Origin: Arcobacter sp.
Lineage (GTDB): Bacteria; Campylobacterota; Campylobacteria; Campylobacterales; Arcobacteraceae
NCBI GenBank assembly: GCA_002869565.1
Contig: PKUJ01000027.1
Span: forward strand, 98,368 to 162,367
Reading direction: 5' to 3'
Length of the DNA: 64,000 nucleotides
Shown here piece after piece: positions 25,066 to 59,522 of the stretch. The position numbers and the translations under genes are program-made. How positions within the stretch are numbered: position 1 is the stretch's first letter; every line of letters starts with the position of its first letter. The notes under the pieces are model-generated. The model was not told where the DNA came from. It worked only from the letters and a program-made list of their open reading frames with translations, and searched no databases.

Positions 25066-25516
25066 ATTTTTTAAACCTACTGTTGAACATATAGGTAAAA
25101 TGCAAGAGCTTGTAAAAGAAGAAGTAGATAATGGAACAATTCTTTTACGAACTGAAGATGAAATGGCTAATACTATTAGATCTTATACTGTAGTTAAAGT
25201 TGATGGTAAAATTGCTGGATTTACAGCTTTACATATACATTCTGCAAGACTTTCAGAGGTTAGAAGTTTAGTTGTTGCGAAAAATTTTAGAGGTCTTAAA
25301 TTAGGTAAAAAGTTGGTTGAAGCATGTATTGAAGAAGGTATAAAATTAGGTCTTAAGCAGATTTTGTCTTTAACATATCAAAAAGGTTTTTTTGAAGCCT
25401 TAGGTTTTGATGAAATTGAAAAAGATCAAATTCCTGAACATAAAATTTGGGCTGATTGTATTAGATGTAAACATTTCCCTAAATGTGATGAGATAGCTAT
25501 GGTTTACGATTTATGA
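25055..25516 (+). CDS. GNAT N-acetyltransferase, probably N-acetylglutamate synthase-like
   Basis: A stand-alone GNAT fold: acetyl-CoA loop VVAKNFRGLKLGKKLVEAC, and a C-terminal CIRCKHFPKCDEIAMVYDL-type end with three cysteines. Campylobacterota use short GNAT proteins of this kind for the first step of arginine synthesis, so an ArgA-like role is likely but not shown. I chose the TTG at 25055, with AGGA about 7 nt upstream, giving 153 residues. An upstream TTG at 25022 adds residues buried in engB. It overlaps the following kinase gene by 4 bp. Confidence 0.75.
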   Translation: MEIEFFKPTVEHIGKMQELVKEEVDNGTILLRTEDEMANTIRSYTVVKVDGKIAGFTALHIHSARLSEVRSLVVAKNFRGLKLGKKLVEACIEEGIKLGLKQILSLTYQKGFFEALGFDEIEKDQIPEHKIWADCIRCKHFPKCDEIAMVYDL

Positions 25517-28365
25517 AACAATTGCTTAAGTTTTTATTCTTAGGCTATTTCTTAACAATAAATGCTTTTGCACAATTACATCTTACAAAAAAAGAATACG
25601 AATATATAAAAAATAATGATGTTAAAGTTGCAATGTTGCCAGACTTTCCTCCTTTTAGTATATATGAAGATGGAGTCTTGTCTGGCTACTCTTTCGATAT
25701 TTTACAACTTATTTCAAATAAAACTGGTTTAAAGTTTCAATACGAAATTGGAAAATGGCCAGTTAATATAAAAAAATTTAAAGAAAAAAAAATTGATATT
25801 ATAGATGCAATCTCTTTTAGAGAGAGTAGATTAGAGTTTACAAATTATATAGATCCTTATTATGAAGTTCCTTTAGTGGTTTTTTCAAGAAAGGAATTGA
25901 AAAATTATACAAATATAGAGTCTTTAAAAGGTAAGAAACTAGGTATTACAAAAAATATTTTTTATAAAAAACAAGTAGAAGATTTAGGAATTTTCAAAAT
26001 CGTTGAATATGAAAGTTTTGAAGATAAATTAAAAGCACTTGCTTTTGGTGAAGTTGATGTTATTTTTGGTCATCTTCTAAGCACTCAGATTGCTATTCAT
26101 AAAAGCCAATATACTAATATGAAAGTTTTAGATGAGTTAGATTTACCTAATCTAAAAAAAACTGATTTACGATTTGGAATAAAAAAAGAAAATGATATTT
26201 TATTATCAATTGTAAATAAAGCATTTACTGACATTTCAATGGAAGAATGGAATGACTTATATAAAAAATGGATTAGTATTTACACTCATCCAACTAAACC
26301 TTTTGTAAAAATCAACGATGGCAAAGTATCATTAACTAATGAAGAAAGAATTTTTTTAAATAAAAAAATTTTTGATTGTGTAATCACTGGAAGTTGGCCC
26401 CCTTTTAATTTTTATGAAGATGGAGAAATTCAAGGTATTTCTTATGATTATTGGAATTTAATAAAAGAAAAAACTTCAATAGATTCAGAGTGTAAAATAG
26501 TAGATTCTTTTGAGAAAGTTTTAAGTTTAATAAAAGAAAAAAAAGCTGATTTTACTATATCTTCTGCAATTACTGAAGATAAAAAAAAGTATGGAAAATT
26601 TTCAGTACCTTTTGTGTCTTATCCTATTGCTATAGCTACTACCATAGATAAAAGATATCTTTCAGAAACATCAACTTTAAATGGTAAAAAAGTTGCAGTT
26701 GGCAAAGGATATAGTGCTTATTATATATTAAAAAAGAAATATCCAAAAATCAATTTTGTACTTGTAAAAAATAATCTTGAGGCCTTTAGATTATTATCCA
26801 AAGGTGATGTTTATGCTGTTGTTGATATATTGCCAGTTTTATCCCAGATGATTGGAGATTATGGGTTTAAAAATTTAAAAATTTCAGGGACAACAGAATT
26901 TAATTTTGATGTTAGAATTATGGTTAGAGATGATTATGAAGAATTAATTCCAATTATAAATAAAGGTATTAATGGAATATCAAAAAAAGAAGCTCAAGAT
27001 ATAAAGAATAAATGGCTATCTGTAAAAGTTGAAAATATTATTGATTATTCGAAACTTTGGCAGGTAGGATTAATTTTGACATTGATTCTTTTAGTTCTTT
27101 TTTATCTACAATATATTTTAAATAGACACAATAGAAGGCTTCAAGAAGCTAATAATGAAATCGAAATAAAAACATTAGAACTACAAAGAAAAACCAAACA
27201 ATTGGCAAAGCAAAAAGAGTTGTTTGAAAAAATATATTATGAGTCTTCAGATGGAATATTTTTAGTAAAAATAAAAAATATGAAGATTATTGATTCAAAT
27301 GATGTTTCTTTGAAACTATTAGGATATGAAAATAAAGAAGATTTTTTTAATCTTAGATATAAAGATTTTTTTCCTGAGAAACAGCCAAATGGTTCAGATT
27401 CTTTAAATATTATCAAAAAAATGATTGATGTAGTACTAGATAAAGGGAATGTAACTTTTGAATTACTACATAAAAAAGCTGATAACTCTACTATTTGGTT
27501 AGAAGTTGTTTTAACATTTATTACAATCGATGATGAAGATATTATTCATATAGTTTGGAGAGATATAGAAAAAAGAAAGAATATGGAAAAAAAATTAAGT
27601 ATTCTTACTCATAATCTTGAAGAGCAAGTAATAGAAGAAGTAAAGAAAAATGAAGAAAAAACAAAGCAGCTGATTCAACAAAATAGACTTGCACAAATGG
27701 GTGAAATGATATCAATGATTGCACATCAATGGAGACAACCTTTGACAGCAATTTCTGCTACAACTAATAATTTAGCACTTAAAATGATGCTTGATAAAAA
27801 GATAGAAAAAAAAGAGTTAGAAAATGAAATAAATCTAATATCTGAATATGCACAATATTTATCTTTAACAATTGATGATTTTAGAAATTTTTTCAAATCA
27901 GATAAGGAAAAAACTAGTATAAAACTTGAGACAATTCTTGATAATTCTGTATCTATTGTAACAAGTTCTTTATCTGCATATTTTATTACACTTACAACAG
28001 ATTTTAAATGTAATAAAGCAGTCAATATTTATTCAACAGAGTTAAATCAAGTTATTTTGAATTTGATTAAAAATGCTCAAGATGCTTTAGTCGAAAGTAA
28101 TATAGAAGATGCAGAAATAAAAATCAAGACTTATTCAGAAAATTTAAATGCAGTAATTGAAATCAGCGATAATGCAGGTGGAATTCCTGAAAATATTTTA
28201 GAAAAAATATTTGATCCATATTTTTCAACAAAAAAATCTAAAGATGGTACGGGACTTGGTCTTTATATGAGTAAGATTATTGTCAATGAGCATTGTGATG
28301 GAGTTTTAAGTGTATCAAATGGTAAATTAGGGGCAGTATTTAAGATAGAAATACCTTTTGAATAG
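25513..28365 (+). CDS. Hybrid-sensor histidine kinase with tandem PBPb domains and PAS
   Basis: 950 residues. Signal peptide (1-20), two consecutive SBP_bac_3 domains (about 28-255 and 275-505), a membrane segment (about 515-537), a coiled linker, a PAS domain (about 570-690), a coiled coil, then the kinase core. The H-box is MIAHQWRQPL (about 736), the N-box is LNLIKNAQDAL, and the G boxes are DNAGGIPENI and GTGLGLYMSK. There is no receiver domain and no response regulator next to it. The second binding domain resembles the protein at the left edge of the window. It likely senses a small polar ligand such as an amino acid. It overlaps the GNAT gene by 4 bp. Confidence 0.9.
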   Translation: MKQLLKFLFLGYFLTINAFAQLHLTKKEYEYIKNNDVKVAMLPDFPPFSIYEDGVLSGYSFDILQLISNKTGLKFQYEIGKWPVNIKKFKEKKIDIIDAISFRESRLEFTNYIDPYYEVPLVVFSRKELKNYTNIESLKGKKLGITKNIFYKKQVEDLGIFKIVEYESFEDKLKALAFGEVDVIFGHLLSTQIAIHKSQYTNMKVLDELDLPNLKKTDLRFGIKKENDILLSIVNKAFTDISMEEWNDLYKKWISIYTHPTKPFVKINDGKVSLTNEERIFLNKKIFDCVITGSWPPFNFYEDGEIQGISYDYWNLIKEKTSIDSECKIVDSFEKVLSLIKEKKADFTISSAITEDKKKYGKFSVPFVSYPIAIATTIDKRYLSETSTLNGKKVAVGKGYSAYYILKKKYPKINFVLVKNNLEAFRLLSKGDVYAVVDILPVLSQMIGDYGFKNLKISGTTEFNFDVRIMVRDDYEELIPIINKGINGISKKEAQDIKNKWLSVKVENIIDYSKLWQVGLILTLILLVLFYLQYILNRHNRRLQEANNEIEIKTLELQRKTKQLAKQKELFEKIYYESSDGIFLVKIKNMKIIDSNDVSLKLLGYENKEDFFNLRYKDFFPEKQPNGSDSLNIIKKMIDVVLDKGNVTFELLHKKADNSTIWLEVVLTFITIDDEDIIHIVWRDIEKRKNMEKKLSILTHNLEEQVIEEVKKNEEKTKQLIQQNRLAQMGEMISMIAHQWRQPLTAISATTNNLALKMMLDKKIEKKELENEINLISEYAQYLSLTIDDFRNFFKSDKEKTSIKLETILDNSVSIVTSSLSAYFITLTTDFKCNKAVNIYSTELNQVILNLIKNAQDALVESNIEDAEIKIKTYSENLNAVIEISDNAGGIPENILEKIFDPYFSTKKSKDGTGLGLYMSKIIVNEHCDGVLSVSNGKLGAVFKIEIPFE

Positions 28366-28429
28366 TTTTAGAAAGTATTTTAATATATTGTAGGCTAAGT
28401 TATTGTTTCTTCTGATTTAGTATAGGCTC

Positions 28430-28636
28430 TTACTGGCGAATTTCAATTGGTGTATTTTTGTCTACGGCATTCCATATCTCATCCATTTCAGGATTTGTAA
28501 CAGCAATACAGCCATTTGTCCAGTTGAATTTTTGTGTGATAAAAGAAAATAAGCCAAAGCCATTTTTTTGTCCATGTATCATAATCATTCCACCTGCATT
28601 ATCTCTGATAGAGATAGATTGACATATAAATAGATT
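28430..28636 (-). pseudogene. C-terminal fragment of an L,D-transpeptidase (YkuD)
   Basis: Reverse-strand reading frame with GGMIMIHG, NWTNGCIAVTNPEMDEIW and a stop at 28430. The HG and the catalytic NGCI cysteine motif are those of YkuD L,D-transpeptidases. The first half of the domain and any signal peptide are absent: in-frame stops lie upstream near 28636, and there is no start with a ribosome site. It appears to be a decayed gene remnant. The remaining bases between the kinase stop and here show nothing else. Confidence 0.7.
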
Positions 28637-28649
28637 TTGTCACCTTTTT

Positions 28650-29063
28650 TTATTTGACTCCACATTTACTATCAAGTATTTTAGCCAAGCTATCTCTTTT
28701 TTTATCTACTTTCATCAGTCTTTGATACTCTGCTTCATTATTACTTTTTTTAGCTTCAACTTTTGCCATAAAAGATTGATATGAATATAATGAATCATAC
28801 ATAAATAATTTTCCATCTATTTTATCTATCTCTTTTGCTGCGCATTTACAGTATTCTAACTCTTTTTCATTTTTGGCTTGTTTTTCGCAAGTGATTTTAA
28901 ACATCTGTTTTGATTTTTTAATTTGCCCATTTTTTAGCATCTGTTCATACATCTCTTGATTTGCTTTAATTTGATAAAACTCATCAATATTCAGAGATAA
29001 AATATTGTTAGCAAAACATTGTAATGATAAAAAAGATATAAAAATTAAATTTTTGAAGCCCAT
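28650..29063 (-). CDS. Small secreted protein of unknown function
   Basis: About 137 residues with a clear signal peptide (FKNLIFISFLSLQCFA, cleavage near residue 18). The mature part is lysine- and glutamate-rich and helical, with three cysteines (in ITCEKQ, EYCKCAA) and one near the C-terminus (SKCGVK), so disulfides are possible. I prefer the ATG at 29063 because AAAAGGA precedes it, rather than an upstream start at 29090 inside the neighbouring pseudogene. Family not recognised. Confidence 0.6.
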   Translation of the reverse strand: MGFKNLIFISFLSLQCFANNILSLNIDEFYQIKANQEMYEQMLKNGQIKKSKQMFKITCEKQAKNEKELEYCKCAAKEIDKIDGKLFMYDSLYSYQSFMAKVEAKKSNNEAEYQRLMKVDKKRDSLAKILDSKCGVK

Positions 29064-29073
29064 TGTTTTCCTT

Positions 29074-29626
29074 TTATTTTCTTCTATCAAGAATTCTTAA
29101 GATTCTTAAAAATAGATTGATAATATCCATATATAGTGCTGCTGCACTATCAATAGCATTATCTAATGTTTTGGGTATTTGATTTCCTCGTCCCCAATCA
29201 TAACCAATATATCCGCAAAAAATAACAGCAACAGCCCAATCTATCCAATTTTGATGAATTCCTAAGATAAATATTTGAAAAAGCTCAATTACAATCATAG
29301 CTAATAAGGCTATTGCCGTATCGTATTGGGATTCTACCATATTTACAATTAATCCAAAAGGAACAACAAAGTTGTAACCTATGAAACTAATAAATGCTTT
29401 ATCTGATTTGTTAAATAGATATACTCCAAAAAAACATGAAGAAAAATATCCTATTCAAAAGGCCCAAATATTTATACTTCGTAAATAATTTGGATCAACA
29501 TTAGTTACTAATAACCAATTTACAAAAAAACCAACATAAAACTATTCCTATTGCCAGATTATATTTAGCATCTGAAATAATTTCAGCAGTAGCTTTTGTT
29601 CTAGTAAAAACATCAGATTCAAGCAT
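29074..29626 (-). pseudogene. Bax inhibitor-1-like membrane protein, disrupted by a frameshift and an in-frame stop
   Basis: From an ATG at 29626 (good AAAGGAAG ribosome site) the reverse strand reads MLESDVFTRTKATAEIISDA and on to VLCWFF. A run of seven T's then shifts the frame. Reading one base fewer restores VNWLLVTNVDPNYLRSINIW-type sequence, which meets a TGA where a tryptophan would fit (after WAF). It then continues as GYFSSCFFGVYLFNKSDKAF and ends with the BI-1 C-terminus (NAIDSAAALYMDIINLFL, RILDRR). About seven hydrophobic segments are seen in total. Two lesions make it a pseudogene, unless they are sequencing errors. The final 88 codons (29074-29340) form an open frame but lack the first membrane segments. 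Confidence 0.75.
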
Positions 29627-29647
29627 ATTTTTTCTTCCTTTGATTTG

Positions 29648-29654
29648 TTAGCAG
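29648..29654 (-). repeat. Half attC-like site at the distal end of the cassette array
   Basis: Read on the minus strand, TGCTAAC followed by AAATC lies just after the stop of the last cassette ORF. It resembles the first (R'') half of the attC sites in the array. No paired second half follows; the sequence passes directly into the ribosome site of the Bax-inhibitor pseudogene. Suggests truncation of the last attC. Weak evidence on its own. Confidence 0.35.
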
Positions 29655-29656
29655 TT

Positions 29657-30115
29657 TCATTGAGTGACAAATGCTTTCGAATTGATTTTAAAATTATAGA
29701 TTTGCCATTTATCGTCACGTTGAATAAGAACAAGAATAATAGTAGCAGGTCCAGTTTCGAATTCTGTATTTATTTGATACTGAGCAGAAACAACTTTTCC
29801 TTTTTCTTGGCTATAGTTAATATTAGAACCTCCAACTACATCTCCCATTTGTTTATATTTTCCAAGTTTCCCATACCACTTAAATAGCTTATCGATTTCA
29901 TCTTTATTAGCTGAATCGATAAGTTCTGAACTGGAATATTTGAGTAATGTTGCTGGTCTGAGATCTGATAATATCTCTGGCACTACTTTTTCTACATAGG
30001 TTTTACTTTGTTCATCTAGGGCATCACCTTTTTTTGCTAGAAGTGTAAAGCCAATGATTCCGGCAATGACAAATACAAGAAAAATACCACCTAATACCAT
30101 TAATATTTTTTTCAT
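29657..30115 (-). CDS. Cassette ORF 4: anchored protein of unknown function
   Basis: 152 residues with one N-terminal membrane segment (about 5-27) and a periplasmic domain of alternating strands. I do not recognise the family. The C-terminal half (QYQINTEFETGPATIILVLI, DDKWQIYNFKINS) resembles small NTF2/DUF4019-like folds in pattern only. AGGAG precedes the ATG directly after the attC site at 30129-30200. It is the cassette furthest from the presumed promoter. Confidence 0.65.
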   Translation of the reverse strand: MKKILMVLGGIFLVFVIAGIIGFTLLAKKGDALDEQSKTYVEKVVPEILSDLRPATLLKYSSSELIDSANKDEIDKLFKWYGKLGKYKQMGDVVGGSNINYSQEKGKVVSAQYQINTEFETGPATIILVLIQRDDKWQIYNFKINSKAFVTQ

Positions 30116-30128
30116 AAATTAATTCTCC

Positions 30129-30200
30129 TGTTAACGTTTGAAATGACCAATCAAAAAGCCGCCCGCGGGTTTTTGATTGGTCTCCTTTGGTTTGTTATGT
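30129..30200 (-). repeat. attC-like recombination site between cassettes 3 and 4
   Basis: A 72-bp imperfect palindrome. The inner arms are CCAATCAAAAA and TTTTTGATTGG around a GC-rich centre (CCGCCCGCGGG). The minus-strand ends read ACATAAC and GTTAACA, approximate RYYYAAC and GTTRRRY cores. The stop codon of cassette ORF 3 lies within the outer arm, as often seen in integron cassettes. Confidence 0.65.
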
Positions 30201-30545
30201 TTTTTGCGTTCTAACTCGCCAATAAATTCCAATAAATGGACTAATAAATAGAAGTGCACATAAATAATATACACTGTTTATATAAAAGGTTCCAGCCTCT
30301 TTCAAAATAGCAGGGCCAACATATGGATCATTAATTTCACCGAATAATAGATAAAAGTAGAAAATAGTTACGGGGAGAGATACAATTAATAGCCTTGGCT
30401 TGTACCTAGCGGATAATATAACCAATATTGATCCACCTATTCCCCATACAAAGTTTTGTACTAATGATGGTTCTTTATCCATGACTTCAGCATGTAATAA
30501 TGATACGAAAATAAATATACATGTCATGAGTCTTATTAACCGCAA
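30195..30545 (-). CDS. Cassette ORF 3: small membrane protein of unknown function
   Basis: 116 residues with a signal-like N-terminus (MTCIFIFVSLLHA) and about three further hydrophobic segments. Family not recognised. GAGGG precedes a TTG at 30545; an ATG at 30527 is an alternative start. The frame lies between two attC-like sites and ends inside one, so it occupies nearly the whole cassette. Confidence 0.6.
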   Translation of the reverse strand: MRLIRLMTCIFIFVSLLHAEVMDKEPSLVQNFVWGIGGSILVILSARYKPRLLIVSLPVTIFYFYLLFGEINDPYVGPAILKEAGTFYINSVYYLCALLFISPFIGIYWRVRTQKT

Positions 30546-30560
30546 TTTTCCCTCTTTAGA

Positions 30561-30629
30561 ACATAACGTTTAAAATGAGCCGATGAATTGCCCGCAGGGT
30601 AATTTATTGGCTCCACTAATTTGTTAAAC
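30561..30629 (-). repeat. attC-like recombination site between cassettes 2 and 3
   Basis: A 69-bp palindromic site. On the minus strand it begins GTTTAAC (RYYYAAC) and ends GTTATGT (one mismatch to GTTRRRY). Inner arms GGAGCC/GGCTC and AAATTACCC/GGGCAATT pair around a small loop. It separates the stop of cassette ORF 2 from the ribosome site of ORF 3. Confidence 0.7.
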
Positions 30630-30632
30630 ACT

Positions 30633-31424
30633 TTAACATGGTGCAACACTGAATGCACTTCCAATGGCATTAGCCAAAACATTAATTATTTCTGTTGTGA
30701 TTCTAGCTTTATTGAAAATAATATCACAGAGAATTGTAAAGACTGCCAATAGATAAGCCAAGTAGCCAAAGCCTGTGTAATCGTTATATAGAATTGTATA
30801 AAACCAGTTTTGTTCGAAGATGTAAAAGTACGAGCTTATAGCAGTCGATAAGAATAATAATATGCCGGGAAGAAATAAATGTTCTGTAGCTTTTGGCTTC
30901 AAAAAAGAGGCTATGAATAAAAATATAAACACGATAGAGTTTATCCCTAAAAATATTCTGACATCCATTGTCAGCTTTTCTACAATTTCCATATATTTAG
31001 CTTGAGTAAAATTTATCAGTTTTTCTTTTGTCTTTTCTAGTGAAGCGATTTCGAATTTAATGGAAGCATTCAAACGTTCTTCCCATTTTTTTCTACATTC
31101 ACAATTAAGATTGCCCATTTTAGAAATTTGAGCAGCTATGATAGCTGGTATATCATCTTTGAGATGCTGTTTTAACTCTGCTAATTTGTCATCCGTTTTT
31201 TGGTGCAAGACTTTGGCTTTATCGCCAAGGAATCTTTTAAGTGTTTTTGATTGAGGCAATGTAATGGAGTCAATTTTCTCATTCATTTCGTTTTTAAGTT
31301 TCCACTCAATAAACCCTTTCGCAGATTTTTCCACAGTGTGCGGGTCTGAAAATGTCAATACGAACAGAGGAACAAATAGTATAATGCCAACCAAGCCAAA
31401 AGCACGAAGCAGATGTTTTTTCAA
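30633..31424 (-). CDS. Cassette ORF 2: membrane protein with a long periplasmic helical domain, function unknown
   Basis: 263 residues. One N-terminal membrane segment (about 7-26), a helical and highly charged region (about 35-150) with a single CEC motif, then about four membrane segments (155-245). I know no function. AGGA is about 7 nt before a TTG start at 31424, which itself lies 17 bases after the attC core at 31441. Codon use is less AT-biased than neighbouring chromosomal genes, consistent with recent acquisition. Confidence 0.65.
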   Translation of the reverse strand: MKKHLLRAFGLVGIILFVPLFVLTFSDPHTVEKSAKGFIEWKLKNEMNEKIDSITLPQSKTLKRFLGDKAKVLHQKTDDKLAELKQHLKDDIPAIIAAQISKMGNLNCECRKKWEERLNASIKFEIASLEKTKEKLINFTQAKYMEIVEKLTMDVRIFLGINSIVFIFLFIASFLKPKATEHLFLPGILLFLSTAISSYFYIFEQNWFYTILYNDYTGFGYLAYLLAVFTILCDIIFNKARITTEIINVLANAIGSAFSVAPC

Positions 31425-31440
31425 AAAAATTCCTTTATGT

Positions 31441-31515
31441 GTTTAACGCTTTGCACAGCGGCGCGAGGTACGAGCGTCCGGCACCGAAGGCGCGTACTGC
31501 TGCAACTTGTTAGAT
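31441..31515 (-). repeat. attC-like recombination site between cassettes 1 and 2
   Basis: The best of the sites. It is 75 bp and GC-rich in an AT-rich neighbourhood. On the minus strand it begins ATCTAAC (perfect RYYYAAC), continues AAGTTGCAGCAGTACGCGCC, and ends GCGTTAAAC (perfect GTTRRRY). The arms GCAGCAGTACGCGCC and GGCGC...TACGAGCGTCC pair imperfectly, with the unpaired bases expected of a folded attC. Confidence 0.8.
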
Positions 31516-31528
31516 TTTTTGCACGATT

Positions 31529-31792
31529 TCATTTTGAGAGCTTATCAACAAGCTTTTGAGCAGATTTTGTAGCTTTGGAAAATTTTATTTTCCCATCAGA
31601 AGAAATTTCAGTGATTTTATCTTTAGCATGATCAGGTAAGCGCTCCATATCTAGAATTTTGTATCCCGCACCTTTTTTTTCAAGAATGCCTTCTGCAACC
31701 AGAGCATCAAAATCAATTGGAGTAGCTAGACTTTTAGCTTTTTCCAACGCTTCTTCTTTAGACATCACGCCTTCCTTTCGATCGTTACTCAT
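31529..31792 (-). CDS. Cassette ORF 1: small soluble protein of unknown function
   Basis: 87 residues, soluble, lysine- and glutamate-rich, with a central LVAEGILEKKGAGYKILDMERLP segment that reads as a small beta-hairpin. Proteins of this sort occur in integron cassettes but have no known role that I can name. GGAG precedes the ATG at 31792; a TTG at 31804 is a weaker option. The start lies 20 bases after the GTTAGAT half-site at 31806-31812. First cassette, nearest to the presumed promoter. Confidence 0.65.
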   Translation of the reverse strand: MSNDRKEGVMSKEEALEKAKSLATPIDFDALVAEGILEKKGAGYKILDMERLPDHAKDKITEISSDGKIKFSKATKSAQKLVDKLSK

Positions 31793-31805
31793 ATTCTTCT
31801 CCAAA

Positions 31806-31812
31806 ATCTAAC
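31806..31812 (-). repeat. Recombination core half-site at the proximal end of the cassette array
   Basis: On the minus strand GTTAGAT, a perfect GTTRRRY core, sits just upstream of cassette ORF 1. It is the complement of the ATCTAAC that opens the attC downstream of the same ORF. This is where an attI x attC junction would be expected. Confidence 0.55.
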
Positions 31813-31828
31813 TATTTAATAGTAATAC

Positions 31829-31834
31829 ATTATA
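31829..31834 (-). promoter_or_regulatory. Possible -10 box for cassette transcription
   Basis: TATAAT on the minus strand about 17 bases before the GTTAGAT core and pointing into the array. No clear -35 box is seen. The -10 is a perfect match, but the region is so AT-rich that chance occurrence is easy. Confidence 0.3.
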
Positions 31835-32019
31835 TATAAATAATGTATAAAAACACCTAATAGGACTACACTTTTTATGATAAGATATTAAATTATGATA
31901 AAGCCCTTAAATAGCTTGGTTTTAGTAGGTTTTTAAATAATATATTACAATATGTAATATTTTTTAAGCTAACTTATATATTTGATATAATTTTCAATAT
32001 TAGATTATTAACGTATATC

Positions 32020-32082
32020 CGTAATAGCTTATCAAAATGTTATGCTATTGGTTAAAAATCGTAATAGTTTATCAAAATGCTA
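32020..32082 (+). repeat. Two 23-bp direct repeats in front of the integrase-like start (attI candidate)
   Basis: CGTAATAGCTTATCAAAATG plus TTA at 32020-32042 recurs at 32060-32082 with two mismatches, a 40-bp period. The repeats lie between the array and the truncated integrase-like ORF, where attI and its integrase-binding direct repeats are expected. They could instead be operator sites of an unknown regulator. The remainder of 31835-32019 is AT-rich; a TATAAT at 31986-31991 could serve the plus-strand ORF. Confidence 0.45.
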
Positions 32083-32101
32083 AGTATATCAGGAGCTAAA
32101 T

Positions 32102-32143
32102 ATGGGTAAAAAATTACTAGATATTATGAGAAGTAAGATTTAA
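32102..32143 (+). pseudogene. Truncated integrase-like start (13 codons), IntI-type N-terminus
   Basis: A strong ribosome site (AGGAG, about 8 nt upstream) leads an ATG reading MGKKLLDIMRSKI and then TAA. From memory, integron integrases commonly open with a KLLDxxRxxIR-type helix, so this looks like the extreme N-terminus of an IntI. It points away from the cassettes, as intI does. Homology to the dispersed repeat begins within a few bases of the stop codon, so the body of the gene seems to have been replaced. The short length keeps confidence moderate. Confidence 0.45.
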
Positions 32144-32147
32144 ATAT

Positions 32148-32680
32148 TCACTTTTTTATTGAAAAAAGTAAAATAAAAAGCAACCCTCAGAGTTTCGAAG
32201 GTGAAACTTCCCTCGCTTATTATTTATTGTTTCTGTTTTGTAAAACTCATATAAAAATATGCTCCCAGCATATTTGTTATATTCAAACAGTTACAAAACT
32301 TATCCGAAACAATAAATAAACACTTTGCTTCTCAAATGTGGGAATAGGGGATAATGACCTTTGCATTTTTAATACTATTTTATTTTAACTGGTGTGATAC
32401 TCAACATCTATCCAAAAAGTTCGTGGCTAAGATATTTTAGTTCAGACTTTGTTGAAGCCGAGTGCTTTACTATTTAAAGCGGAATAAACCGAAACTGTTT
32501 AAGGTAAAAATGTGACTTTAAGTCACGTTTTTATTGAGTTTTATTTGTAAACAAAATTATCATGCAGGCTAGCTTTAAAAAGTGAAGTGGGAGGGAACTT
32601 TAGCTTCAACAACTCGTCTGGTGGTTTTTGTTTTACCATTATAAAGTAAAGAAAGCGAAGAACTTGTTCTTCAAGAGAGA
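32148..32680 (+). repeat. Dispersed non-coding repeat, copy 1 (about 530 bp)
   Basis: Aligns in order with the reverse complement of 58978-59496. Shared blocks are GTTTCGAAG, TTCCCTC-CTTATTATTTAT, GCTTCT-CAAATGTGGG, CTTTGTTGAAGCCG, GTGACT-AGTCACGTTTTT-TTGAGTTT, and the longest, GGGAACTTTAGCTTCAACAA followed by CTCGTCTGGTGGTTTTTGTT. It ends in AAAGAAAGCGAAGAAC and TTGTTCTTCAAGAGA. No convincing gene lies inside. The stretch between it and the RND gene otherwise contains only the REP-like hairpin. Confidence 0.7.
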
Positions 32681-32729
32681 ATAAGTAAAATGTAATTAAT
32701 TATAAAGTTTATATTTCATTTATTTATAT

Positions 32730-32760
32730 GCATTCCCAACGAGGACGTTGGGAACAAGTA
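32730..32760. repeat. REP-like hairpin
   Basis: GCATTCCCAACGAGGACGTT then GGGAACAAG: a perfect 9-bp stem TTCCCAACG/CGTTGGGAA with an AGGA loop, preceded by GCA and followed by CAAG. This is the format of REP sequences associated with RAYT (TnpA-REP) transposases. It lies between the dispersed repeat and the end of the RND gene and could also act as a terminator for the latter. Confidence 0.55.
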
Positions 32761-32776
32761 GGTATAATGAGCATAT

Positions 32777-34429
32777 TTATAATATCTTTTTAATTTGATT
32801 CTTTATTATAACTGGCACAAAAAACATTGATACTACATAGGATATTAAAGTACCACCAATAAGTGCTACTCCTAAACCTCCAAATACTGCGTCAGTAGCC
32901 AAAAGTGATGAAGCGAATACCATTGTCAGTACTGTTAGAATAATTGGCTTAGAACGTGTTGCTGTGGCTTTTGCAATGGCTTGATTTATTGTTAATCCTT
33001 TTTCTTCAATTAACTGTTTTGTAAAGTCTATGATTAGAGTAGAATTTCTTGAGTTTATTCCAATTAGTCCTATAAATCCTATAAGTGATGTTGCAGTTAA
33101 ATAAAAAGTATCATTTGTAAATATATCCATGATAATATGAGCAATAATAACTCCGATGATTGATACAAAACTTGATAATACTATTCCACCTGATAAGGCA
33201 AAACTTTTATAATAAACTACCATCAAAAAGAAAATTAATACAAGTGCGATAATAAAAGCACCCCCAAGATCAATAAAAGTATCAATAGTTACTTTTAGTT
33301 CTCCATCCCAAACAAGTTTAAACTTTTCACCTGTTTTTTTATCTTTAAATTCTAAATTTAACATATTTGATTTAATTACTTCATAATCTTTTGTAAAAGT
33401 ATCTAAAAGCTCAGTTCTTGCATCAAGAAGAGGGTATATTTGACTATCTTTATTTGTTTCTGCAATTACATTTATCATAGGTGTTAGATTTTTTGAGGTA
33501 AGTGTTGGTTCTTTTAAAACTTTTTTTACATTTATTAATTCATTTAGCGGAATAGTAGAGCCGTTTTTATTTATTAGTTTTAGGGTTGATAGTTTATTTA
33601 CAATAGCATCTTTATTATTTGAGTCAAAAACTCTTTGATTATCAAGTCTTAGGAAAATTGGAATTTGACTTTGTGAATCTTTTTCATTTACTACTGATAA
33701 TACTAAACCTTCATAGGCAATATATATGATATTTTTTACTTGTTCTAGTGAAATTCCAGTTTTTATGATTTTATTATTATCTAGTGTTATTTCGAATTTT
33801 TCTTTTTCTTTATCTGCCATAACATCTACATCTACAAGTGTTTTTTGATTTTGTAATACCTTTGCTATTTTATTAGCAAAAACTCTTCTATTTTGAAAAT
33901 TGTTTCCTCCATAAATTTCAGCAACAATTGAAGCAAGAACTGGTGGCCCTGCTGGTAGTTCTATAAGTTTTATATTTGCTTCATATTTTGAACACTCTTG
34001 CAATTCTTCTCTTATATCACTTACAAAGTTATAACTTGAGATATCTCTATTGTTTGCTTTTTTTATATTTACCATTATTTCAGCTTGAGACTGTTTATCT
34101 TTTAAGGCACTTTGTTTTACTAAAGCTGCAAAATCAAGGGGTTGCCCTTCTCCTATGAAAACAGAAATATCTGTGACTAAATCTTTTGAGATAAGTTTTT
34201 TAGAGATGCAAGATGTGACTTCCTTTGTTTGAACTATTGAAGAACCTTCTTTTAAATCAACATATACTGAAAAAGTATCTGAGTCTTTACTTGGAAGCAT
34301 TTTTGCTTTTACAATTTCTGTAGGAAATGTCGCAATAGAAAATATAAAAAGTAGTAAGGTTATTGCATATACCAATAAAGATTTTCTTGGGCTTTGAATT
34401 ATGTTATAAATAAATTTTTCTAATTTCAT
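32777..34429 (-). CDS. RND efflux pump, C-terminal half (separate ORF)
   Basis: 550 residues corresponding to the second repeat of an AcrB-type pump: one membrane helix (about 18-36), a large periplasmic porter loop (about 40-385), then five membrane helices. In the central helix GLIGINSRNSTLIIDF, an arginine stands where AcrB has Lys940. The start ATG follows the stop of the N-terminal half by nine bases, in the same frame, with AAGG as ribosome site. The two halves may associate to make a working pump, or the stop may be a recent mutation. Last gene of the tolC-adaptor-RND operon. Confidence 0.85.
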   Translation of the reverse strand: MKLEKFIYNIIQSPRKSLLVYAITLLLFIFSIATFPTEIVKAKMLPSKDSDTFSVYVDLKEGSSIVQTKEVTSCISKKLISKDLVTDISVFIGEGQPLDFAALVKQSALKDKQSQAEIMVNIKKANNRDISSYNFVSDIREELQECSKYEANIKLIELPAGPPVLASIVAEIYGGNNFQNRRVFANKIAKVLQNQKTLVDVDVMADKEKEKFEITLDNNKIIKTGISLEQVKNIIYIAYEGLVLSVVNEKDSQSQIPIFLRLDNQRVFDSNNKDAIVNKLSTLKLINKNGSTIPLNELINVKKVLKEPTLTSKNLTPMINVIAETNKDSQIYPLLDARTELLDTFTKDYEVIKSNMLNLEFKDKKTGEKFKLVWDGELKVTIDTFIDLGGAFIIALVLIFFLMVVYYKSFALSGGIVLSSFVSIIGVIIAHIIMDIFTNDTFYLTATSLIGFIGLIGINSRNSTLIIDFTKQLIEEKGLTINQAIAKATATRSKPIILTVLTMVFASSLLATDAVFGGLGVALIGGTLISYVVSMFFVPVIIKNQIKKIL

Positions 34430-34438
34430 AATAAAACC

Positions 34439-35971
34439 TTACAGAAATTTTTTAACTAAATATGGCGTAAATACATATGCAACAAAAAGTGAAACTACAA
34501 GTGCAATAGGCACAAATACTGGAAGAGGGTGCATAAACTGACCCATCATACCACCTACAAAAAACATTGGAATAAATGTCATTATAATTGCGATTGTTGC
34601 AATGTTTGTTGCATTTCCTATCTCATTTGTAGCATTTATAGAAATAGTTTTTAAATCGTAGTTATTGGTATCCTCTTTTTTATGTCTTACAATATTTTCA
34701 ATCACAATAATAGCTGCATCAACTAACATACCAAGACTAACTATTAGTGCAAAAAGAGTTATACGGTTAATAGTTTCATCCATCATAAAACCTATAAAAA
34801 GAGTTAATGATAAAATCATTGGTACTAAAACTGAGACAATCATTGCTTCTTTAAATCCAAGTGAAAAGATAAGTAATATGGCAATAATTACAATAGAAAT
34901 AAGTAAATTCTGAACTAAAGAGTTTACTGCATTGTTTGCTGTATATCCATCATCTCTTGTAATTACAAATTTAATGTTTTTATTTTCAAGTTGTGGTTTT
35001 ATTGAATCTATGTATTTAAATATCTCTTCATTTATAGTTACAGAATTTGAACCTTTTAGTTTTGAAATAGTTAGAGTCGATTGTTCAAGTGCTTTTTCTT
35101 TTGTATCTTTTTTATAAACGTAAGCTTCTCTTTTATTTTGAATATCATATGATCTTGAAATTTTTGCAATATCTTTTAAATATATTGGAGTATTGAAATT
35201 ATATGAAATGATGATATTCTCCAAATCTTCTTTTGATTCAATTGCATTTTTTATACTAAGTATTGTCAAATCATTTGTATGGTTATCAGAGTTTATATTT
35301 GGTGTTGTAAGAGATAATGCTTTAATTTGTTTTGCAATTTGTCCTAAGGATAAGTTATAAGCAGATAGTTTACTTGAATTAACTTCTACATTATATTGCT
35401 CTTTTTTTTCACCTTTTAAATCCACAAGGGCTACATTTTTTATTTTATTTACTTCATATGCTATTTTACTTATTTCATTATATAGTTTTGTTTGAGAGGT
35501 TTTATTTTCATTTGCATAAAATGCAATAGTTGCAATAGGTATATCTGTATCTATATCCATTGTTTTAATTATAGGTTGCATTGCACCTTTTGGTAGTAAA
35601 TCCATATTTCTCATAACTTGGTCATAAAGTTTTAGATTTGATACTTCTTTGTCTTCCCCAATATAATATTGAACTTGTACAATAGCAACAGAATCTTTTG
35701 CAAAAGAGTAAATATGTTCAACACCTTTTATCTCTCTTATTTTTCTTTCCAAAGGTTCAATAATGACCTTTTTTATTTCGCTTGGACGTGCTCCTGGAAG
35801 TGCAACAATAACAGCCCCGCCACTTACTTTTATTTGAGGATTTTCTTCTCTTGGCATAAATTCTAAAGAGATAAATCCTAAACATAAGATAAAAAGACCT
35901 AATATAAAGGTTAGAGGATGGTCAATAAAAGTTTTAGCTAATCTTCCTGCTATATTTGTTTCATTGCTCAT
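34439..35971 (-). CDS. RND efflux pump, N-terminal half (separate ORF)
   Basis: 510 residues: first membrane helix (about 17-35), porter loop (about 40-345), then five helices ending TPYLVKKFL. The proton-relay helix 4 reads GMLVDAAIIVIENI, so the second aspartate of the AcrB GLLVDD pair is alanine, a variant I recall from other RND subgroups. A TAA ends the frame where a complete pump would continue. The remainder is encoded by the next ORF. The start overlaps the adaptor gene by 11 bp. Substrate unknown. Confidence 0.87.
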   Translation of the reverse strand: MSNETNIAGRLAKTFIDHPLTFILGLFILCLGFISLEFMPREENPQIKVSGGAVIVALPGARPSEIKKVIIEPLERKIREIKGVEHIYSFAKDSVAIVQVQYYIGEDKEVSNLKLYDQVMRNMDLLPKGAMQPIIKTMDIDTDIPIATIAFYANENKTSQTKLYNEISKIAYEVNKIKNVALVDLKGEKKEQYNVEVNSSKLSAYNLSLGQIAKQIKALSLTTPNINSDNHTNDLTILSIKNAIESKEDLENIIISYNFNTPIYLKDIAKISRSYDIQNKREAYVYKKDTKEKALEQSTLTISKLKGSNSVTINEEIFKYIDSIKPQLENKNIKFVITRDDGYTANNAVNSLVQNLLISIVIIAILLIFSLGFKEAMIVSVLVPMILSLTLFIGFMMDETINRITLFALIVSLGMLVDAAIIVIENIVRHKKEDTNNYDLKTISINATNEIGNATNIATIAIIMTFIPMFFVGGMMGQFMHPLPVFVPIALVVSLFVAYVFTPYLVKKFL

Positions 35972-58977: not shown

Positions 58978-59496
58978 TTCTCTTGAAGAACGAGTTCTTC
59001 GCTTTCTTTACTTTTGATGGCAAAAGTAAAACAAAAACCACCAGACGAGTTGTTGAAGCTAAAGTTCCCTACAGGTTCTTAATTATTTTTTGCCTTGCGA
59101 AACTCAACAAAAACGTGACATTTAGTCACCTTTTTATTTCAAACATTCTCAGGCTTTTCCAAAAATAATTAAAAACCTTCCGGCTTCAACAAAGCCTGGA
59201 CTATAAGAAAATTCAAACTATCATTTGTGAATTTAATATCTAAAATTTTGAACTACAGAAATCCCCACATTTGCAGAAGCCGAACGTTTATTTGTCTCTT
59301 TTCGAAACACGTGTTTAAACTGTTTGAGCGTTAATAAATGTGACTAAATGTCACATTTTAGCGAGTTTTTAAACGCAGAAAAGGGATAAATAATAAGAGA
59401 GGGAACCTTTGGCTTCGAAACACGTGGGTGGCTTTTTGTTTTACTTTTTGCCACCAAAAAGTGAGGAAGCGGAAAGCTTCAGCTTTTCAAGAGATG
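58978..59496 (-). repeat. Dispersed non-coding repeat, copy 2 (inverted relative to copy 1)
   Basis: The reverse complement aligns in order with 32148-32680. In addition, this copy's two ends are imperfect inverted copies of each other: about 95 bp at 58978-59075 against 59395-59496, both with the GCTTCA/GCTTCG, GTGGTTTTTGTTTTAC-like and CTTTC-CTTCTTCAAGAG-like blocks. GTGACATTTAGTCAC-type palindromes occur twice inside. The small frames in it look like repeat by-products. With the REP-like hairpin, this accounts for the gene-free stretch between the RDD and HMA genes. Confidence 0.7.
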
Positions 59497-59522
59497 CAAA
59501 ATGTTTAAAGTTGAAGTATTAA

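Follow-up and report, generated by a model that had tools for sequence, protein, structure and literature searches.

Between positions 31812 and 29636, on the minus strand of a 64,000-nucleotide stretch from the genome of an Arcobacter sp., lies what is almost certainly a relic chromosomal integron: the attachment site attI and four gene cassettes have been kept, and the integron's own integrase gene, intI, has been lost. The whole stretch is referred to here as the window, and plain coordinates are positions in it; it belongs to contig C16 of a genome (G000) assembled in 42 contigs. Complete integrons consist of intI, attI and cassettes bearing attC sites (PMC8618304), and a cluster of attC sites lacking an integron integrase (CALIN) is defined as at least two attC sites without a usable intI nearby (PMC9024848, PMC8618304). 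On these definitions, the window locus falls short of a complete integron, having no intI in cis, and counts as a CALIN with attI. It resembles other CALINs in having at least two attC sites and no usable intI, and differs from them in keeping an attI leader and 13 codons of intI. Three origins have been proposed for CALINs, namely loss of intI, off-target insertion of cassettes, and rearrangement (PMC8618304). The leader and the remaining codons favour the first of these, and the locus thereby serves as a worked case of an attC cluster losing its integrase. Its features are as follows.

31806-31812, minus strand: core GTTAGAT at the junction of attI and cassette 1 (sequence; complements the R'' box of cassette 1 at 4/4 variable bases)
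31809-32101, plus strand: attI leader between the cassettes and intI (leader profile, model R2, similarity to the G060 leader)
31943-31959, no strand: near-palindrome TATTACAATATGTAATA in the leader, a possible operator (leader alignment A2)
32102-32143, plus strand: intI relic of 13 codons (MGKKLLDIMRSKI), then a stop (tblastn with intact IntI)
32148-32679, plus strand: dispersed repeat with inverted ends, resembling a miniature inverted-repeat transposable element (MITE), directly after the intI relic (repeat profile, E = 7.9e-111)
31529-31804, minus strand: open reading frame (ORF) of cassette 1, 91 amino acids from a TTG, the ATG at 31792 being the more likely start (ORF list, Pfam)
31441-31515, minus strand: attC of cassette 1 (R'' ATCTAAC, R' GTTAAAC), GC-rich, of non-native type (boxes, fold, cassette-end match)
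30633-31424, minus strand: ORF of cassette 2, 263 amino acids (93% identical protein in G032; ratio of nonsynonymous to synonymous substitution rates, dN/dS, 0.14)
30561-30629, minus strand: attC of cassette 2 (R'' GTTTAAC, R' GTTATGT), of the type native to the family (model R1, E = 2.6e-14)
30195-30545, minus strand: ORF of cassette 3, 116 amino acids, with its stop at 30195-30197 inside its own attC (ORF list)
30129-30200, minus strand: attC of cassette 3 (R'' ACATAAC, R' GTTAACA) (model R1, E = 7.6e-9)
29657-30115, minus strand: ORF of cassette 4, 152 amino acids, with weak relatives only (ORF list, protein searches)
29636-29653, minus strand: truncated attC of cassette 4 (R'' TGCTAAC plus AAATCAAAGGA) (sequence; its start resembles an attC of locus L095)

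Each cassette holds a single ORF, all four lie in one orientation, and three full attC sites are followed by a truncated fourth, as is seen in integron arrays. The initial annotation, made from the sequence alone, had described four minus-strand ORFs with their own ribosome sites, each starting after a GTT core, together with three palindromic sites (31441-31515, 30561-30629 and 30129-30200) and a stop of ORF 3 within its attC. This description was borne out at every position, with the distance from core to start now set at 13-16 bp (using the ATG at 31792 for the first cassette) where 14-20 bp had been given; a purine-rich ribosome site is visible by eye before each of the four ORFs. The truncated fourth attC, the attI leader, the intI stub and the dispersed repeat at 32148-32679 are additions to that description.

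The integrase side of the locus was recognised by its similarity to other integron leaders. A profile of 22 such leaders, three of them from the same genome and none from the window, matches 31809-32141 with an E-value of 7.6e-53, and a second, shorter leader model (R2) gives E = 5.2e-20 in 309 kb. Together with the complementarity between the junction core and the first R'' box, the two models point to an attI site beside the first cassette. The stub that follows shares 11 of its 13 residues with intact IntI by tblastn, its stop ends at 32143, and, as is usual for an integron, leader and stub are arranged head to head with the array. No working intI is present in cis: the frame stops after 13 codons, and no match to the integron integrase family TIGR02249 was found inside the window. 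The initial annotation's attC cluster without integrase therefore holds as far as a working gene in cis is concerned. It does not hold as a loose attC cluster, as the leader and the stub adjoin the array and an intact IntI is encoded about 113 kb away. Compared with the guaA-linked leader of G060, that of the window shows 92% identity; its similarity to the leader of the intact integron in its own genome is 53-69%, and a copy from the latter was rejected on these values. Two motifs recur among aligned leaders. The near-palindrome TATTACAATATGTAATA is found in similar form in most of them and may be an operator for intI, while a TATATAATGTAT-like block at the attI end of the aligned leaders only suggests a cassette promoter (Pc).

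The attC sites were examined by motif, fold and covariance. In a scan of the window for the motif plus a hairpin, the three full sites take the top ranks. A stricter version yields 7 matches per 314,402 strand-bases of neighbouring DNA, and at 39 intI or leader loci (a set that includes the window and in which some loci are the same sequence twice) its matches on the array side number 49 in array orientation versus 2 in the opposite one. These scans replaced a first one with near-perfect boxes, which was noisy. Folding of the bottom strand, which the initial annotation had called for, gives structures better than all 200 shuffles for 30561-30629 (z -4.2) and 30129-30200 (z -5.1). A covariance model, R1, was trained on 24 attC sites from other loci with the window sites left out, and its consensus has R and L stems and unpaired spacers, with double-sided compensatory changes in 6 of 20 pairs. 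In 205 kb of DNA from the same genome, R1 recovers 30561-30629 at 77 bits (E = 2.6e-14) and 30129-30200 at 53 bits (E = 7.6e-9). Five further matches appear up to an E-value of 10: three at other attC sites or on their opposite strand (one being a training site), another on the strand opposite to 30561, and a last one with E = 8.2. The third full site, 31441-31515, is supported by its boxes, its cassette-end match and its position, and with the two R1 matches it completes the set of attC sites that has no integron integrase nearby. The elements of an attC site, namely R'' and R' boxes, R and L stems and an unpaired spacer, are seen in the R1 consensus, in the alignments and in the fold of 31441-31515, in the architecture described in PMC2727003. 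Close counterparts exist elsewhere: the 30561 site is 97% identical to one in L052 (an Arcobacteraceae bacterium) over 62 bp and 93% to one in L053 (Arcobacter sp. CECT 8985) over 73 bp, and the 30129 site is 95% identical to one in L095 (a Sulfurospirillaceae bacterium) over 74 bp. The intI locus of the family member G081 (L031) has the same attC as L053, which points to Arcobacteraceae as the family.

Since IntI cuts inside R', a cassette is expected to begin with a core complementary to its own R''. Over the variable bases, the window cassettes agree with this rule at 4/4, 4/4, 4/4 and 3/4 positions, the last being the cassette with the truncated attC. Across 11 loci, 24 of 28 pairs are perfect, as against a mean of 2.6 and a maximum of 10 in 20,000 shuffles; ten of these pairs were read by hand from four loci of the window's genome, whose cores a script confirmed to lie in sequence order, and 18 are consecutive pairs from seven other loci. 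Pairs taken within a site are perfect in only 2 of 25 cases, as expected. The first cassettes at three other loci of the genome (C19, C25 and C16:256k) fit the rule, as does the second at C19. Two of the 18 consecutive pairs are imperfect (3 and 2 of 4 bases), which weighs against the rule, as does the second detected site of C25, which mismatches its predecessor; a missed site between the two is a possible explanation.

One cassette of the array is also shared with another bacterium. Cassette 2 recurs in G032, which belongs to another genus of the family, with 94% DNA identity over 889 bp. The identity begins at the GTTAAAC core and ends at the next GTTAT core, the neighbours on both sides are unrelated, and the G032 copy sits in an array of many attC sites with an attC on either side. 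With the encoded proteins 93% identical and a dN/dS of 0.14, the cassette 2 protein is under purifying selection. Among 104 genomes of the family, it was matched (E <= 0.001) only in G032 and in its own genome. A 45% paralogue lies in the latter at G000:C25:286534-287476 (L149), next to a weak leader-like match, and this locus is perhaps a further eroded platform. The R1 matches, the cassette ends and the shared cassette bounded by GTT cores together uphold the integron cassette array that had been proposed from sequence alone.

The same contig encodes an intact IntI at C16:15809-16771, about 113 kb from the window platform, which starts at about 130.2 kb. It is a protein of 320 residues that scores 403.8 bits against TIGR02249 (cut-off 265) over profile positions 1-313 of 315, and its best solved relative is the Vibrio IntI 2a3v (E = 5.4e-78, residues 1-318 of 320). 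This gene has its own attI and cassettes and sits beside guaA. The second of these cassettes (L009, 17722-18669) encodes a putAbiC-type protein (PF16872, E = 1.2e-20) with a weak AbiP match; putAbiC-type proteins are annotated as phage abortive infection proteins, so the intact integron's array may carry a phage-defence gene.

In total, the genome has eight attI leaders. One is followed by the intact intI, one by 71 N-terminal codons and one by 34, and the other five have no intI fragment detectable by tblastn at E 1e-3, a threshold that misses even the 13 codons in the window. Among these five, the window keeps its 13 codons, C25 keeps none, and C19 keeps the start-codon region and an apparent internal piece of intI. 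At C19 (G000:C19:38500-43000, L187), intI appears by eye to lack the stretch between two ATGGGTAAAAAA repeats, one at the start codon and the other at an MGKK motif further on; no dispersed repeat accompanies this apparent loss. No attC was recognised at C30, and at C4 the intI fragment ends, as read by eye, at an apparent insertion sequence (IS) end. Similar relics are found across the genus, where 36 leaders in 12 of 16 genomes comprise 4 with intact intI, 8 with broken intI and 24 with no detectable fragment, counts that are biased because many loci were picked for a repeat near attC. In four species (that of the window, G057, G067 and G068), intI is cut at codon 12-13 with nearly the same sequence after the cut. 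These truncations lie behind three leader types: the window leader is 92% like L033, those of G057 and G067 are 85-87% like L012, and that of G068 is 94% like L053, with 57-66% likeness between types. Related bacteria often carry such integrase-less leftovers. In G042 (L028, and probably L050 and L051), three full-length intI matches of similar score each contain in-frame stops and occur alongside two partial matches, a pattern that would fit the copying of an already dead integron. Among the loci fetched, guaA lies in the same stretch as an integron leader or attC array in nine genomes, and its neighbourhood looks like the integron's home site.

The repeat that follows the stub in the window bears on how intI was lost. 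A 314-bp query from it has matches in 14 of the 16 genomes of the genus, in several of them no more than short, partial ones. Among 23 leaders picked by leader similarity alone (E <= 1e-9, the window's own row left out), nine have the repeat downstream within 400 bp, where 0.04 are expected, and its nearest row has the same orientation in 9/9; the result is 9/23 with either the 56 typed repeat rows or all 96 except the window's. Two of the nine also have a short row on the opposite strand, which is an inner palindrome of the repeat. In the biased sample, the repeat lies within 150 bp of 13 of the 24 fragment-less leaders in matching orientation and of one in the opposite orientation, and none of the 12 leaders with intact or broken intI has it within 1500 bp. 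The repeat at the leaders and the apparent IS end at C4 indicate that mobile elements probably contributed to the loss of intI. The repeat occurs once more in the window, at 58978-59500, with no R1 attC match near it. MITE-flanked integrons and integron mobilisation units exist in Acinetobacter and Enterobacter. There, too, a short element with inverted repeats lies by an integron that may lack intI; unlike that case, the repeat described here lies on the integrase side, mostly in one orientation and in the place of intI.

These observations could also fit a mobile, integrase-less platform, in which leader, cassettes and repeat move as a unit served by a single IntI in trans. We consider this a possible account, though a doubtful one. 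It would explain why one genome holds five leaders with scraps of intI or none, why the repeat is so frequent and so uniformly oriented downstream of leaders, why similar junction sequences occur at different places of G057, G060 and G068, and why the truncation at codon 12-13 is shared behind three leader types. The window leader's 92% identity to that of G060, where the neighbouring RND (resistance-nodulation-division) transporter gene has 81% DNA identity, suggests horizontal arrival or strong constraint, and relatives in which the site has only a short gap also speak for a mobile platform. However, the far end of the array in the window consists of non-cassette genes, and no target duplication was found, without a detailed search for one and without systematic comparison of the far ends of arrays. 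Moreover, 10 of the 24 sampled intI-less leaders have no repeat within 150 bp, the junctions fall into at least two classes, and intI at C19 was apparently lost by another route. The classes of junction and the C19 route mean that repeated, independent decay fits as well. A wider version of the idea is that the genus integron is a dispersed system of many platforms, in which repeat-capped, integrase-less units multiply to as many as eight leaders per genome and receive service, if there is any, from a single intact integrase acting in trans; this we put forward only tentatively. That integrons occur in the phylum has already been published, and the many-platform, repeat-capped architecture is the new part.

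Cassettes might instead have been placed singly at secondary sites by the distant IntI, with no platform ever having existed at this position. Such off-target insertion is one of the three published origins of CALINs (PMC8618304) and an intact IntI is indeed present in the genome, but an attI leader and an intI start lie at the correct end of the array in the correct orientation, and the leader core at which the first cassette begins agrees in its bases with the R'' of that cassette. The leader and the stub therefore mark the locus as a relic integron rather than a cluster of off-target cassettes, an origin that we regard as very improbable here. Next to no credence can be given to an ordinary operon whose intrinsic terminators look integron-like by chance, for although the sites are inverted repeats between co-oriented genes, the covariance matches, cassette ends, attI leader and intI stub all argue otherwise, and the cassette shared with G032, with identity bounded at GTT cores, refutes it.

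As a relic integron, the locus works, or at least worked, like an integron, judging from its sequence. Its cassettes would have entered singly at attI, through an integron integrase that recombines attC as a folded bottom strand, and the platform with its array would have come to lie between two convergent genes. The intI gene would have been deleted to codon 13, where the dispersed repeat now marks the break, and the end of the last attC would have been removed. The intact IntI about 113 kb away might still allow the array to lose or swap cassettes, for which we see roughly even chances, and the cassette genes would be read from the leader or from promoters of their own. With one intact integrase and eight attI leaders, the genome offers a natural test of whether remote platforms are served.

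The genes at the edges of the array are listed below.

29074-29627, minus strand: broken Bax1-I family gene at the array edge, directly after the truncated attC (PF01027, E = 1.8e-14, for the C-terminal ORF)
25513-28365, plus strand: left flank, sensor histidine kinase (profile search; a homologue neighbours the RND gene in 11/15 relatives)
32777-34429, minus strand: right flank, half of an RND transporter (profile search, comparison of relatives)

Of 15 relatives, 11 have homologues of the kinase and the RND gene side by side; the two are separated by 10-29 bp in six of these and by 555-1436 bp in the other five, as against 4411 bp in the window. The gaps in these 11 relatives contain nothing that matches the ORF at 28650-29063, the Bax1-I fragment or any of the four cassette ORFs. 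The initial annotation had held that relatives with the same four genes but without the palindromes would speak against cassettes, and no such relative was found among the 11 of 15 that can be compared. The other inserts, of 555-1436 bp, occur in G055, G058, G059, G061 and G065 (L122, L127, L119, L124 and L120), and the junction is a possible insertion hot spot. The Bax1-I family gene has a frame shift and a stop upstream of its C-terminal ORF.

Several points weigh against the interpretation of the locus as a relic integron inserted at this junction. The 31441-31515 site folds no better than shuffled sequences (z +0.5, with 135 of 200 shuffles equal or better), although its fold still has an R stem, a 2-nt spacer and an L stem with one bulged base. 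This GC-rich site is also missed by R1, a model of the native type, in the 205 kb searched, so that the covariance check suggested by the initial annotation, made here with our own model, finds two of the three full sites. Its GC content of 59%, compared with 38-42% at the other two, agrees with the earlier description, which had claimed GC richness for that site. As R1 was trained on close kin of the 30561 site, the E-value of that match stands for membership in a known site type and not for an independent discovery. The insertion itself rests on the relatives with short gaps, and in some of these the kinase alignment is limited to residues 270-949; G054, G057, G067 and G068 are uninformative, as their RND gene has no close homologue of the kinase next to it. 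No cassette features are seen in the left part of the island (28366-29635), where the ORFs match only the window's own DNA in the 207 sources searched. Finally, any activity of the distant IntI in trans is presumed from sequence. Within 28366-29073, between the Bax1-I relic and the kinase, a protein of 138-146 amino acids with no known family is encoded, and a short piece resembles, by eye, the end of an L,D-transpeptidase.

The nearest published pattern is that of the sedentary chromosomal integron of Xanthomonas, as portrayed in a study in which the home site is ilvD, intI is mostly inactivated (according to an earlier survey cited there) and CALINs are found elsewhere in about half of the genomes (PMC12444791). 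The Arcobacter integrons likewise have a home core gene (guaA), many dead intI genes, CALINs elsewhere and cargo mostly of unknown function. Beyond the pattern given for Xanthomonas, attI leaders remain recognisable at arrays outside the home site, with as many as eight per genome, and the repeat often replaces intI. Within the phylum, two CALINs are recorded for Sulfurovum sp. NBC37-1 and an In0 and a CALIN for Sulfurimonas autotrophica (PMC10295459); these are elements of the same kind, for which the published table gives types only.

The initial annotation did not expect integrons in this group, an expectation that the survey data overturn. Above the curated cut-off, intI is present in 16 of 104 genomes of the family and, across the phylum, in 34 of 397; below the cut-off, the intI profile also matches ordinary tyrosine recombinases (14/14 controls). 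Native attC sites (E <= 0.01) occur in 57 of 104 family genomes and 14 of 20 genera, a count in which strict filters drop weak sites and some genomes rest on one weak match. A review also includes Campylobacterota among the integron phyla (PMC8618304). Integrons are thus common in this family of Campylobacterota, with an attC type of their own. In the open-access literature, with subscription journals mostly outside the scope, we found no description of sedentary integrons in Arcobacteraceae.

The window array most likely serves at present as a modest collection of accessory genes, one or more of them under selection, with no good match to known protein families. The initial annotation considered all four products to be of unknown function, and this mostly stands, with the exception that cassette 1 has a short match to the Pfam family Ribosomal_L27A just above the cut-off (24.5 bits against 21.5). 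A protein of this L15/L18e type is odd cassette cargo (31529-31804). The search of whole genomes of the family covered cassettes 2 and 4, and the latter has, besides itself, one 30% match, in G042. In a plasmid collection searched with cassettes 1, 2 and 4, no relatives of cassettes 1 and 2 were found, and cassette 4 has one 27% match, in Pseudoalteromonas donghaensis. No relative of cassette 2 was found in IMG/VR. Defence profiles gave nothing convincing for the window cassettes, the LeoBC match of cassette 2 having an E-value of 0.0064, and Rfam gave no match at the gathering threshold in the window, with AgrB below threshold (E = 0.18) in 31700-32780. By eye, three of the four cassette products appear to be membrane or exported proteins.

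On the right flank, the RND transporter is divided between two neighbouring ORFs (32777-35971), and its C-terminal half is a separate frame of 552-616 amino acids in 16/16 genomes of the genus.

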